This document shows, in pieces, positions 11,383-16,688 of a DNA stretch of 37,422 bases. The stretch's first letter is position 1. Each line of letters begins with the position of its first letter. Made by a program: the position numbers and the translations under genes. The notes under the pieces were generated by a model. That model was given only the letters and a program-made list of their open reading frames with translations, was not told where the DNA came from and did no database searches. Location of the stretch: positions 1 through 37,422 of the forward strand of contig JAAUUM010000015.1 in NCBI GenBank assembly GCA_012031565.1, written 5' to 3'. Origin of the DNA: Synechococcaceae cyanobacterium SM2_3_2. GTDB taxonomy: Bacteria; Cyanobacteriota; Cyanobacteriia; Thermostichales; Thermostichaceae.

Positions 11383-11868
11383 CTAGCTCAAGCCAGAGCA
11401 GATGTAGTCGAAGTACACGCCCATTTCTTTGCCAGCATCAGAACCCACCAAGGAGGCGGTTACTTCTTTCATGGCTTGGATGGCTTGTACGGTGGAACCC
11501 ACAGGCACGCCCAAGGAGTTGTAGGTCTCTTTGAGTCCGTTCAGCACCCGCTCATCCAGGATAGAGGCGTCACCCGCCAACATGGCATAGGTGGCATAGC
11601 GGAGATAGTAGTCCATGTCGCGGATGCAGGCAGCATAGCGACGGGTGGTGTACATATTGCCACCGGGACGGGTCAAGTCAGAATACAGCAACGCTTTAGC
11701 GGCGGCATCCTTGACGATGGTGGAGGCATTGGCGGCGATGGTGCCAGCTGCGCGCACACGGATTTCGCCGGTGGCGAAGAAGGACTTCAGTTTATCGATG
11801 GCAGAGCTATCGAGATACTTGCCCTGCACGTCGTAGCTGTTGATAACAGAGGTGACTGCGTCTTGCAT
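11383..11868 (-). CDS. apcB: Allophycocyanin beta subunit
   Basis: Light-harvesting phycobiliprotein of the phycobilisome core; it pairs with ApcA and passes excitation energy toward the terminal emitters. It has 161 residues, the exact family length. Cys81 in [15 protein letters not shown] carries phycocyanobilin, and Asn71 in GGNMYTTRR is the residue methylated in beta subunits. It begins [20 protein letters not shown], preceded by AGGA about 8 bases upstream. It lies 100 bases after apcA in the same operon and ends with TAG, showing that TAG is a working stop codon in this genome. Confidence 0.98.
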
Positions 11869-11968
11869 GGTTTTGTCCTGAAAATCGTTTTTTGTCTTTT
11901 AACTCAAATAACTCGAAGAATGCTGAGTGATTCCTAAGGATGCAACACTGAACGGGATCCCCAAAGAT

Positions 11969-12454
11969 CTAGTTCAGGCCACCGACCACGAAGTCGAAGT
12001 AGTAGCCAGCTTCGGTGGCATCGTCGCCAGACAACAAGCTCATGGCCGCAGACTTCATCTGACGAACACTTTCAGCCACCGCCGGCAAGGGGGTGCCCAA
12101 AGAGTTGTACATTTCTTTGACGCCCACCAAGCCGATCTCTTCGATGGGGGTGACATCGCCCGCGATCACACCATAGGTGACCAAACGCAGGTAATAGTCC
12201 ATATCCCGCAAGCAGGTGGCGGTCATCTCTTCACCGTAGGCATTGCCGCCGGGAGACACGACATCAGGCCGCTTTTGGAACAGAGAATCAGCAGCTTGCT
12301 TGACGATCCGTTCACGGGATTCGGTCAAAACTTGAGCAATCCGCAACCGAGCTTCACCTTTGGTAACAAAAGACTTGATCCGATCGAGTTCACCGGGGCT
12401 TAAATAACGCGCTTCCGCGTCAGCATTCACAATTGATTTTGTGACAACGCTCAT
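11969..12454 (-). CDS. apcA: Allophycocyanin alpha subunit
   Basis: Alpha partner of ApcB in the phycobilisome core. From ATG 12454 it has 161 residues, starting [20 protein letters not shown]; the ORF track starts three codons earlier (MIS), which the family does not have. Cys81 in [14 protein letters not shown] binds phycocyanobilin. It is the first gene of apcABC. The 513 bases upstream, shared with the divergent hslO gene, must contain its promoter. No apcE is adjacent. Confidence 0.98.
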
Positions 12455-12967
12455 GGATATCAATCCTCAGACGATATTTATAGGAGTGTGACAGACCTAC
12501 ACTCGCACAACATTGTCGGACAAAGGGCCAAGTTCCCGCTTAGACTCTTCATAGTTCTTAAACTTTTTGCCCCAGTTCGACCTCAGAATTTTGGCGGACG
12601 ATACTGATCTGGACAGGGATCCTAGTCTCTGGGGGCAAGGCTCTCGTCTCCTCAGAAAACTGCCCCTCAATGCCCCAAGCCCGACTTGTAGCTCTAGCTA
12701 TCTCTTTTGTTAGGAGCCAGGGATCCCTGCGGCGGAGCTGGGGCTTGTTAGCAGGGAGAAAGGTGCAGTTACAATTGTTAATAGCTGTTTAATCCCTGTT
12801 GAGAGTTTCTCATCCCTGAGCTGTGGGAGCCTGGGACGAGCCAGTGCTGAGGGGGTGCCCGATTTTGTCCTTCTTTTGTACTTTGGTCTTGTCCTTACGA
12901 TGGTTACATCGACCTTGGGCAGCTTGGGCTCTTTGCAGCTGAGATTTCCACCCGTTCTCTACCTGAA
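12455..12967. promoter_or_regulatory. Long divergent leader/promoter region of apcA and hslO
   Basis: About 510 bases without a supported gene separate apcA and hslO. A sequence GTTACAATTGTTAATAG (12768-12784) resembles a degenerate RpaB-binding HLR1 site (paired GTTACAWW boxes), but the spacing is off by one. A perfect 12-bp palindrome CAGGGATCCCTG is at 12719-12730. The ORFs in the track here (for example 12810-13034) look like noise. A long untranslated leader is common for phycobilisome operons. Confidence 0.4.
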
Positions 12968-12970
12968 TTG

Positions 12971-13897
12971 ATGATGGTTGACCTATCCCTGACCCCGGCT
13001 GTCTCCAACGACTTTGACCAACTGATCCGGGCAACCGCCGCTGATGGCTTTATCCGAGCGGTGGGGGTGGTCTCAACCCATACGGTGCAAGAGGCAAGGC
13101 AACGGCATCACCTGTCTTATGTGGCAACGGTAGCCCTGGGGCGCACCATCAGCGCTGGATTACTGCTGGCGGCTAACCTCAAGCAAGAGCAGGCCCGCAT
13201 CAATTTGCAAGTTAAAGGGGATGGCCCCTTGGGATCCCTTTGGGTGGACGCGGGATCCGATGGCACGGTGCGGGGTTATGTGGAGCATCCGGCGGTAGAA
13301 TTGCCCCTAACCGAGTCCAGCCAACTGAATGTGGGGCAGGCGGTGGGCCGTTACGGCTATCTGCATGTGATCCGCGATCAGGGCTATGGGATCCCGTTTA
13401 GCAGTTCCACCGAATTGGTCAATGGCGAGATTGGTGAGGATATCACTCGTTTTCTGGCCAGTTCTGAGCAAACACCGTCCATCATTGTCCTGGGGGTGTT
13501 GGTGGATACCCACGGGGTCAAAGCGGCTGGAGGCCTGTTGTTCCAACTCCTGCCAGATGCCCCATTGTCTTTGATTGCAGAACTAGAGGAACGGATCAGC
13601 AAGGTGGAAACCCTCAGCCCAATGTTGGCGGCGGGCAAAACCCTACCGATGATTTTGGAGGAGTTTATCGGGGATCTTGAGCTGACCATTTTGCCGGGAC
13701 TCCAGCCGGTGCGGTTTCACTGCAAATGCAGCCGGGGTCGGGTCAAGGGGGCGCTGCGGATCCTGGGAGAACAGGAGCTACGCAGCATGATTGTGGAGGA
13801 CAAGGGAGCTGAGGCCACCTGTCATTTTTGCAATGAGGTCTACCAAGTCACGGAAGCTGAGCTAGAAGAATTGGTGCAGCAGCTTCAGGCCAGCTAA
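12971..13897 (+). CDS. hslO: Redox-regulated molecular chaperone Hsp33
   Basis: Cytoplasmic holdase chaperone activated by oxidative stress. The C-terminal zinc center that acts as the redox switch is complete: CKC (about residues 251-253) and CHFC (about 284-287), the family CxC...CxxC. The N-terminal domain has the typical ATVALGRTISAGLLLAANLK and the central VVDTHG-like VLVDTHGVKAAGGLLFQLLP. The product has about 308 residues, slightly longer than many. The ORF track starts at TTG 12968; ATG 12971 or 12974 is more likely. Divergent from apcA and convergent with the GUN4 gene, with almost no gap. Confidence 0.95.
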   Translation: MMVDLSLTPAVSNDFDQLIRATAADGFIRAVGVVSTHTVQEARQRHHLSYVATVALGRTISAGLLLAANLKQEQARINLQVKGDGPLGSLWVDAGSDGTVRGYVEHPAVELPLTESSQLNVGQAVGRYGYLHVIRDQGYGIPFSSSTELVNGEIGEDITRFLASSEQTPSIIVLGVLVDTHGVKAAGGLLFQLLPDAPLSLIAELEERISKVETLSPMLAAGKTLPMILEEFIGDLELTILPGLQPVRFHCKCSRGRVKGALRILGEQELRSMIVEDKGAEATCHFCNEVYQVTEAELEELVQQLQAS

Positions 13898-13934: not shown

Positions 13935-14774
13935 TCAGGATCCCTGGGATGAGGACGGGAGGCAAGCCGACCACTTGGCCAACAGGTAACGATCAAATAA
14001 CAGCAAACTGGATCTCAGCCCTCCGGCATTGCCCGCCAAAAAGCCTACCGGTAGATGACCTGGGGGCGCTTCCAGCGTGTAGTTCAGCTCATGGTAGTAA
14101 AGCCAGCGGTCAGAGGGTAGCCAGCCCACGATGCGGCCCCAAGTCTCGATATCGCGGGGAGCTTTTGACCACAGGTGAAATTGGATCCCGAAGCCAAAGC
14201 GCCCCTGGCTATAGGCCATCCACATTTTGTCGATCAGCTGTAGCTCCTGCTTGGGAAAGGTTTTGATGGCATCCACATCAAAGTTGCCCCATGAACTGCG
14301 CCCCGTCATCTGAAGCAGCAAGGCGGTGGTTTGAGCATCCGCCTGTTGCCACTGCTGAGCCTTGAGCAGATCCCGAATCTGCATCAGTTCCTCCACATAG
14401 GCTTGGGCTGAGGGCAAGGAGCCGGATCCACTGGAATGTCTACCCGGTGAAGATGACAGGGCTGCCTTAGGGGATTCAAGCCTCTGACTAAGCACCTCTG
14501 TCGGTTCCACAAGTCTGGCCAGTTCTACAGTCTGGGGTTCTACAGGTTTTGGTGGTGCCGGGGAGGAGGGCAACTGGAGGGGGTCAGAGTAAGCTTTTAG
14601 GGTCTGCTCTTCGCTCTGAAAATCTGTGCTCTGAAAATCTGTGCTCTGAAAATCTGTGCTCTGAAAATCTGTTTTGCTTCGATTGGCTGGCCCAGAAAGA
14701 GATGTGTTGTCCTTATGAGCACTGTCTTTCAGTAGCTTTTCTAGATCTGACAAGTCGGTGGTGGAAAGGCCCAA
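13935..14774 (-). CDS. GUN4 domain protein (possibly the 3' part of a split kinase-GUN4 gene)
   Basis: The C-terminal half (about residues 120-270) is a GUN4 domain, a porphyrin-binding fold that in GUN4 itself stimulates magnesium chelatase. Signs are LLKAQQWQQADAQTTALLLQ, FPKQELQLIDKMWMAYSQG and RFGFGIQFHLWSK. The N-terminal half is a low-complexity linker with four perfect copies of TDFQS. The start is poor: the ORF begins with TTG, has no Shine-Dalgarno sequence, and has no ATG or GTG until well inside. The frame is open upstream to 14855 and overlaps the end of the kinase ORF, so a one-base shift would fuse the two. Kinase-GUN4 fusions are, as I recall, found in other cyanobacteria. Confidence 0.8.
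   Translation of the reverse strand: MGLSTTDLSDLEKLLKDSAHKDNTSLSGPANRSKTDFQSTDFQSTDFQSTDFQSEEQTLKAYSDPLQLPSSPAPPKPVEPQTVELARLVEPTEVLSQRLESPKAALSSSPGRHSSGSGSLPSAQAYVEELMQIRDLLKAQQWQQADAQTTALLLQMTGRSSWGNFDVDAIKTFPKQELQLIDKMWMAYSQGRFGFGIQFHLWSKAPRDIETWGRIVGWLPSDRWLYYHELNYTLEAPPGHLPVGFLAGNAGGLRSSLLLFDRYLLAKWSACLPSSSQGS
14613..14672 (-). repeat. Four perfect tandem 15-bp repeats inside the GUN4 gene
   Basis: The unit GCTCTGAAAATCTGT (plus strand) occurs four times without a mismatch and encodes the pentapeptide TDFQS four times in the linker ahead of the GUN4 domain. Perfect copies imply recent expansion by slippage, and copy number may vary between strains. Confidence 0.95.
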
Positions 14775-14835
14775 AACTGAGACTGCGGCAATCGGGGCAG
14801 AAATAGAGGGACGATAGGAGAGCAGAGGGGCTTCT

Positions 14836-15732
14836 CTAACTGCAACGGTTGGATCCTACAAAAACCCTACCGGTGGGTTCTCCAGTATCTTCCCCAGTCG
14901 AATCTAACGGTATGGGGTCAGAGGCTGAGAGCAGCTGGATCCACTCGGCGATGGACTCCGGTCGATCGTGGGCATAAAAGGCCATTCCCTGCAAAATAGC
15001 TGCTTGGGTGGCATCACTGATGGCAGGGTTGAGGGCTTGGGGCGGATCCAACTCTCGGCCCCCAACTCTGGCTGGGGCACAAAGAGGGATCTCACCAGTT
15101 AGGGCGGTATAGAGGGTGGCGGCTAACCCATAGACATCGATCCAAGCCCCGCGCCGCTGCAAAGAGTCGTATTGCTCGATGGGAGCGTAGCCATCCGTGC
15201 CAAAGCTGGTGTGGTGTTGGATCACCCCCTGAGAGAAGTCTCGAACTAGGCCAAAATCAATCAAAACCGCTTGAGCAGGATGCTCCCGCAGGATGACATT
15301 GGCGGGCTTGACATCCCGATGCAACATATCCTGCTGATGCAGCGCCGTGAGAGCGGATCCCACCTGGCGGATATAGCGCAAGGCTTCCGGCTCTGGCATG
15401 ACGCCCTGTTTTGCCACGTAGCGTTGCAGGGTCTGCCCAGGGACATATTCCATCACAATGCACCACAGCCCTGCCTCTAGGATTACCTCCTCAACCCGGA
15501 CGATGTGGGGATGGCGGCAGCGGGCTAGCCGCAGGGCCTCATTCAAAAAATCCTGCTGAAACTTCTCAAAATCGGGATCCCTTTGCAGCTCATCATTGAG
15601 GGTTTTGAGCACCACCCAATCGGCACGGCGATTATCCCAAGCCAAGTAGGTGAGGCCAAATCCACCTCGGCCCAACAGGGATTCAATGCGATAGCGACCC
15701 TCTTGCAAGCGGTCTTGGGGTGCCCAAACCAT
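14836..15732 (-). CDS. Serine/threonine protein kinase
   Basis: Hanks-type eukaryotic-like protein kinase, cytoplasmic part only. Counting from ATG 15732 (MVWAPQDRLQ): Gly-rich loop LGRGGFGLTY (20-29), catalytic Lys43 in VVLKTL, MEYVPG hinge (about 94-99), catalytic loop HRDVKPANV (138-146), DFG at 159-161 in LIDFGLV, activation loop end GYAPIEQYD. All essential residues are present. The kinase domain reaches about residue 275 and the ORF ends about 20 residues later at TAG (14836-14838). The ORF track's earlier start (15822) adds 30 residues not typical of the fold. The GUN4 frame overlaps the last codons, suggesting a split fusion gene. Confidence 0.9.
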   Translation of the reverse strand: MVWAPQDRLQEGRYRIESLLGRGGFGLTYLAWDNRRADWVVLKTLNDELQRDPDFEKFQQDFLNEALRLARCRHPHIVRVEEVILEAGLWCIVMEYVPGQTLQRYVAKQGVMPEPEALRYIRQVGSALTALHQQDMLHRDVKPANVILREHPAQAVLIDFGLVRDFSQGVIQHHTSFGTDGYAPIEQYDSLQRRGAWIDVYGLAATLYTALTGEIPLCAPARVGGRELDPPQALNPAISDATQAAILQGMAFYAHDRPESIAEWIQLLSASDPIPLDSTGEDTGEPTGRVFVGSNRCS

Positions 15733-15937: not shown

Positions 15938-15967
15938 ATTGTGCTTAAGAAGATTGTGCTTAAGAAG
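15938..15967 (-). repeat. 15-bp tandem duplication over the ho1 stop codon
   Basis: ATTGTGCTTAAGAAG is present twice in perfect tandem (15938-15952 and 15953-15967), spanning the heme oxygenase stop codon (15960-15962). Each unit contains the palindrome CTTAAG. Confidence 0.9.
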
Positions 15968-16688
15968 ACTGAGCGGCGGCTTTGGCTGCACCAGCGGATC
16001 CCTTATTGAATTGGCTGAGCAAGGAGTTCCAGCCCAACCGAGTCATGGAGATCAACCAGTTGCCCTCTAGCTCCTTAAACAGATCCATGTTCAGCTTGAA
16101 GGCATAGTTGGCTTCCGCCACCACCCGGGCTTTGGTCTCTTCGTCTAGATCAAGAGCATCCAGAGCGGCACGGTATTGCTGCTTAAATTTGCCCTCGTGC
16201 TTGATCTGCTCAAAGTCGTAAAAGGCAGTGCCTTCCCCAGGGGTCAACCCCATCGCCCGTTGTGCCACTTTCTTGAGGATTTGGCCACCCGACAGATCGC
16301 CGATGTAGCGGGTGTAGGCATGGGCGATCAACAAAACGGGATCCGTCTCGCTCAGGGTTTGGATCCGTTCCACATAGGTGCGGCAAGCGGGCGACATCTG
16401 GACGGCGGTGCGCCACTGGGATCCACAAAAATAGTCCATATCCTGCTCTAGGCTGGGCTTACGCCACAGTTCTGGATAGTAAAGCTTGCCCACCACCTCA
16501 TGATCCCGATGGCGAGTAAAGGCTTCTTCTAAAGCTGAATAGACGAAGTAGAAATGGGTTAGATATCGGCTGTAGGAGGTTTTGTTAACAACACCCTTCA
16601 AAAAGCACTTCACAAATCCGACATTTTCCGCCATCGTGTGGGCTGTCTTGGTGCCCTCACGGAGTTGCGCCGCTAGTCCTAAGCTCAC
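15960..16688 (-). CDS. ho1: Heme oxygenase (biliverdin-producing)
   Basis: Ferredoxin-dependent heme oxygenase that opens heme to biliverdin IX-alpha, the precursor of phycocyanobilin for the phycobilisome. It has 242 residues, normal for cyanobacterial HO1. The proximal heme-ligand histidine lies in LREGTKTAHTMAEN (His17) and the distal helix in YIGDLSGGQILKK (about 128-140). The start is GTG 16688, supported by a strong Shine-Dalgarno AAGGAGG 4-5 bases upstream. dnaX lies about 150 bases upstream on the same strand. The Ala/Ser-rich tail ends in a region changed by a 15-bp duplication. Confidence 0.96.
   Translation of the reverse strand: MSLGLAAQLREGTKTAHTMAENVGFVKCFLKGVVNKTSYSRYLTHFYFVYSALEEAFTRHRDHEVVGKLYYPELWRKPSLEQDMDYFCGSQWRTAVQMSPACRTYVERIQTLSETDPVLLIAHAYTRYIGDLSGGQILKKVAQRAMGLTPGEGTAFYDFEQIKHEGKFKQQYRAALDALDLDEETKARVVAEANYAFKLNMDLFKELEGNWLISMTRLGWNSLLSQFNKGSAGAAKAAAQSS

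Follow-up and report, generated by a model that had tools for sequence, protein, structure and literature searches.

A cyanobacterial kinase-GUN4 gene read in two overlapping frames, most likely through an assembly error

On the minus strand of a 37,422-nucleotide stretch of DNA from Synechococcaceae cyanobacterium SM2_3_2 (the whole stretch analysed, hereafter the window; contig C80 of a draft genome that comprises 323 contigs and is 89.8% complete), the open frame of a Ser/Thr protein kinase runs into a second open frame that encodes a GUN4-like domain. This raises the question of whether the locus is one gene or two and, if one, whether its product could sense porphyrin or heme, as a preliminary description had proposed. 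The features that bear on this question are as follows.

14836 to 15732, minus strand: Ser/Thr protein kinase open reading frame (Pfam PF00069), from ATG 15732 to the TAG stop at 14836-14838.
13935 to 14855, minus strand: frame of the linker and GUN4-like domain (PF05419, E 4.2e-33, residues 157-273).
14836 to 14855, minus strand: overlap of the two open frames, 20 bases (stop-to-stop open reading frames in a three-frame view).
About 14728 to 14774, minus strand: linker motif LGLSTTDLSDLEKLLK, encoded in the GUN4 frame ahead of every ATG or GTG (by-eye comparison).
14613 to 14672, minus strand: perfect tandem repeat of four 15-bp units, encoding the TDFQS repeats.
14037 to 14387, minus strand: GUN4-like domain, apparently of paralogue type (Phe196 position occupied by Leu, Asn of LxNxLR absent).
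15960 to 16688: heme oxygenase gene beside the kinase-GUN4 gene.

We found both frames on the minus strand where the preliminary description had placed them, each with its Pfam domain. The kinase frame matches the Pkinase profile (PF00069, E 2.2e-38) and could open as early as GTG 15822, while ATG 15732 is the start that matches the Met of the relatives' MAWAVGE... Its motifs GRGGFG, VVLK, HRDVKPAN, DFG and APIEQ are intact, and the kinase part carries every motif that an active enzyme should have. The Hanks-type kinase domain and the catalytic motifs of the cbSTKII-GUN4 class are both present in this frame, and the C-terminal GUN4 domain of that class is provided by the PF05419 match (E 4.2e-33) in the other. 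The reported overlap at the kinase tail was likewise seen, with 14836-14855 shared by the two open frames. Relative to the kinase frame, the GUN4 frame is shifted by +1 base, and a single +1 change would fall inside this interval. The earlier explanation by one extra base was right in its net count of +1, but the loss of one base at each of two sites accounts for the shift just as well; codon usage did not separate the two, as the one-gain and two-loss paths lie ~3 log units apart, with far more two-loss paths tried. As worded, the claim of a GUN4 frame lacking ATG and GTG does not hold, since three GTG codons (14510, 14495, 14396) and one ATG (14384) are in frame, all 3' of the repeat linker and the last two immediately before the GUN4 domain; it does hold for the opening 345 bases, and the first TTG is at 14774.

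To establish what the intact gene would look like, we turned to its relatives. The kinase-GUN4 orthologue is a single uninterrupted frame of 473-557 aa in all seven same-family genomes, the best kinase match in each ending with a GUN4 domain, and fused kinase-GUN4 frames occur in many other cyanobacteria too. The two domains that stand in two frames in this assembly are thus in one polypeptide in 7/7 family orthologues. Separate orthologous genes with starts of their own, named beforehand as the refuting case, were looked for in these seven genomes and none was found; therefore the proposed one-piece form stands. The linker points the same way. Straight after the break, with no ATG or GTG before it, the GUN4 frame encodes LGLSTTDLSDLEKLL, which is like the relatives' IQTRDLQELQQIL, and LGLSTTDLSDLEKLLK resembles the same motif (translations compared by eye in both cases); because this motif just after the break is common to the one-piece relatives, the gene was in one piece, and a one-piece ancestral gene is supported by these comparisons. 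The expectation of one-piece orthologues sharing the same linker was borne out only in its first half: the TDFQS repeats are indeed encoded by the perfect 15-bp array, but they were not found in the linkers of the seven same-family relatives and are private to the window sequence. The linker is poorly conserved among family orthologues, and the linker and C-terminal domain together are about 37-57% identical to family members. As a separate observation, the array at 14613-14672 is a possible length-variable site.

Neither the architecture nor the sensor idea is new; both are already published. Kinases with GUN4 were listed for several cyanobacteria in 2007, including CYA_2756 of Synechococcus JA-3-3Ab and CYB_0637 of JA-2-3B'a (PMC2176072). 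These two cbSTKII proteins, from related hot-spring strains, have the same domain order as the window gene and are apparently its direct orthologues, but unlike it they are in one piece and lack TDFQS repeats; the best matches in genomes G001 and G006 are 63-64% identical in the kinase. A more distant relative, likened by architecture, is the Nostoc PCC 7120 kinase with a C-terminal GUN4 (gi 17134087), for which a role in chlorophyll control was suggested in 2005 (PMC1262709), and GUN4 was proposed as a tetrapyrrole sensor of fused enzymes in 2020 (PMC7159879).

We compared ~100 orthologues (114 kb) from this draft with G001, a single-contig and apparently complete relative. Clear frame breaks were seen in ChlH, canonical GUN4, a Uma2-like gene, a Cas10/Cmr2 gene and kinase-GUN4, plus two unclear cases (L173 and L174, set down as ambiguous). 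Two of these breaks, in kinase-GUN4 and canonical GUN4, had already been noticed before the sample was drawn; the unbiased count is therefore 3 in ~98 genes. The reverse comparison, used as a control (118 kb), gave at most one similar break. By DNA alignment, ChlH, canonical GUN4 and the Uma2-like gene have one-base homopolymer losses and Cas10/Cmr2 a one-base gain in an A-run. The breaks outside the window are located as follows.

L175, contig C15, about 8951: ChlH (Mg-chelatase H), the only copy found in the assembly; base missing from a short T-run.
L083, contig C123, about 4888: canonical GUN4, the only copy found in the assembly; base missing from an A-run.
L171, about 8620: Uma2-like gene (named by resemblance, with no family match); C-run loss.
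L076, about 2200: Cas10/Cmr2 gene; A-run gain.
L174, about 17300: SIMPL-type gene; ambiguous frame break.

Three further flagged breaks were false and were set aside: that at window 11383-12325 is the antisense of a phycobiliprotein gene pair, that at L070 reflects two tandem copies, and that at L180 overlapping low-complexity matches.

Because ChlH, GUN4, the Uma2-like gene and Cas10 are also broken by one-base homopolymer changes, the kinase-GUN4 split is most likely another of this assembly's one-base errors. It is well established that ChlH is indispensable to any chlorophyll-making organism. We therefore favour, with a probability of about 0.82, a cyanobacterial kinase-GUN4 gene of the ordinary kind (class cbSTKII, GUN4 at the C terminus) that makes one protein in vivo and was split by an assembly or sequencing error. 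The living organism would then make a single protein in which a fast-evolving linker joins the Ser/Thr kinase at the N terminus to a GUN4-like domain at the C terminus; this domain probably gives the kinase its regulatory or adaptor end. The frame break near 14836-14855 would be a one-base (net +1) error. A point against an error is that the position of the break in a homopolymer, seen in the other genes, is not certain here. A real and recent frameshift of this lineage would leave a complete 298-aa kinase still made and the GUN4 part lost or poorly translated, as an early pseudogene or a truncated kinase. Such a kinase would be viable, since the Pkinase domain spans residues 44-248 of 328 and ends well before the break; selection on the poorly conserved linker is weak, and early decay would likewise be compatible with the 37-57% identity to family members. 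We nevertheless consider a real frameshift improbable, as the GUN4 frame runs uninterrupted over 306 aa, scores strongly for its domain and uses codons in a coding-like way, and essential genes are broken by the same one-base pattern in the same assembly.

Far less probable still, in our view, is that the two frames are used as they stand, either through programmed +1 frameshifting or as a true two-gene operon that re-initiates at TTG 14774 or at a later GTG or ATG. The 20-base overlap and the presence of possible late starts would allow it, but these starts fall within sequence equivalent to the orthologues' linker or domain, and no +1 slip motif was recognised by eye at the kinase stop (AGT TAG). 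With single frames in 7/7 family orthologues a conserved slip site is not expected, and on this ground we rejected programmed frameshifting. As a caution, because the same assembly also breaks ChlH and GUN4, split genes in this draft should not be taken as biology.

The heme oxygenase gene, whose adjacency had been offered as a hint of function, does adjoin the kinase-GUN4 gene in the window, but the arrangement is not conserved: no heme oxygenase was found near the kinase-GUN4 gene in G001-G005, and the two genes are at 2.53 Mb (heme oxygenase) and 0.65 Mb (kinase-GUN4) in G001. We therefore rejected a functional link to heme oxygenase. Elsewhere in the window, a phycobiliprotein gene pair (11383-12463) is followed by Hsp33/hslO (12968-13897), with homologues also adjacent in G001 (L162); this block looks syntenic with G001, where the kinase-GUN4 gene lies outside it. 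We also observed that GGGATCCC, already described as the HIP derivative found in thermophilic Synechococcus (PMC4390886), is the commonest octamer in the sampled sequence of this genome and of G001.

Could tetrapyrrole bound to the GUN4 domain switch the kinase, making the fused protein a porphyrin or heme sensor? This proposal, which is compatible with every reading of the split, has points in its favour: Krupa 2005 and Kaur 2020 put forward the general idea, homology of the window domain to GUN4 is strong (E 2e-15 against T. elongatus 1z3x, by sequence), and the GHLP core motif is kept, in common with canonical GUN4 (Synechocystis sll0558, PDB 1y6i; T. elongatus 1z3x). Canonical GUN4, however, has no kinase fusion and carries Phe196 (Synechocystis numbering) and the LxNxLR motif, both of which are missing from the window domain. 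In our alignment, Phe196 together with Asn211 of LxNxLR was present in 31/33 canonical rows, whereas among the 11 kinase-fused GUN4 domains, the window's included, neither residue was found in any (Leu replaces Phe196 in 10/11, as in the window, and Arg in the other). As to Arg214, the window domain contains a GGLRS stretch whose register varies with the alignment. In Chlamydomonas GUN4, Asn211/219 is required for bilin binding and its loss leaves porphyrin binding, the N219G variant still binding porphyrin (PMC10156173), so that loss of the Asn alone would be no bar to porphyrin sensing. The affinity of GUN4 for porphyrin depends in part on Phe191/196 and Arg211/214 (PMC8967248). The fused domain looks like a paralogue type, akin to the cyanobacterial paralogues of the sll1380 type that also lack the LxNxLR Asn; the report on those paralogues does not discuss kinase fusions, and the word 'kinase' is absent from it (PMC10156173).

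Porphyrin sensing by this fusion is therefore possible but not supported by the binding-site residues, and with the bilin-linked Asn and the affinity-linked Phe both missing and the heme oxygenase neighbour not conserved, a sensor kinase appears to us doubtful. It is no less likely that the domain works as a regulatory or adaptor terminus of the kinase than that it senses tetrapyrroles. More plausible than a sensor, though still tentative and short of even odds, is that the kinase-fused GUN4 domains form a class that has lost both the Asn needed for bilin binding and the Phe of the pocket, has a different ligand or none, and lets the kinase bind other proteins through this end. As the fused domains lack the residues linked to bilin and porphyrin binding, the proposed sensor role is in need of a binding test; if the ligand is indeed different or absent, the published tetrapyrrole-sensor proposals for kinase-GUN4 proteins would need revision.
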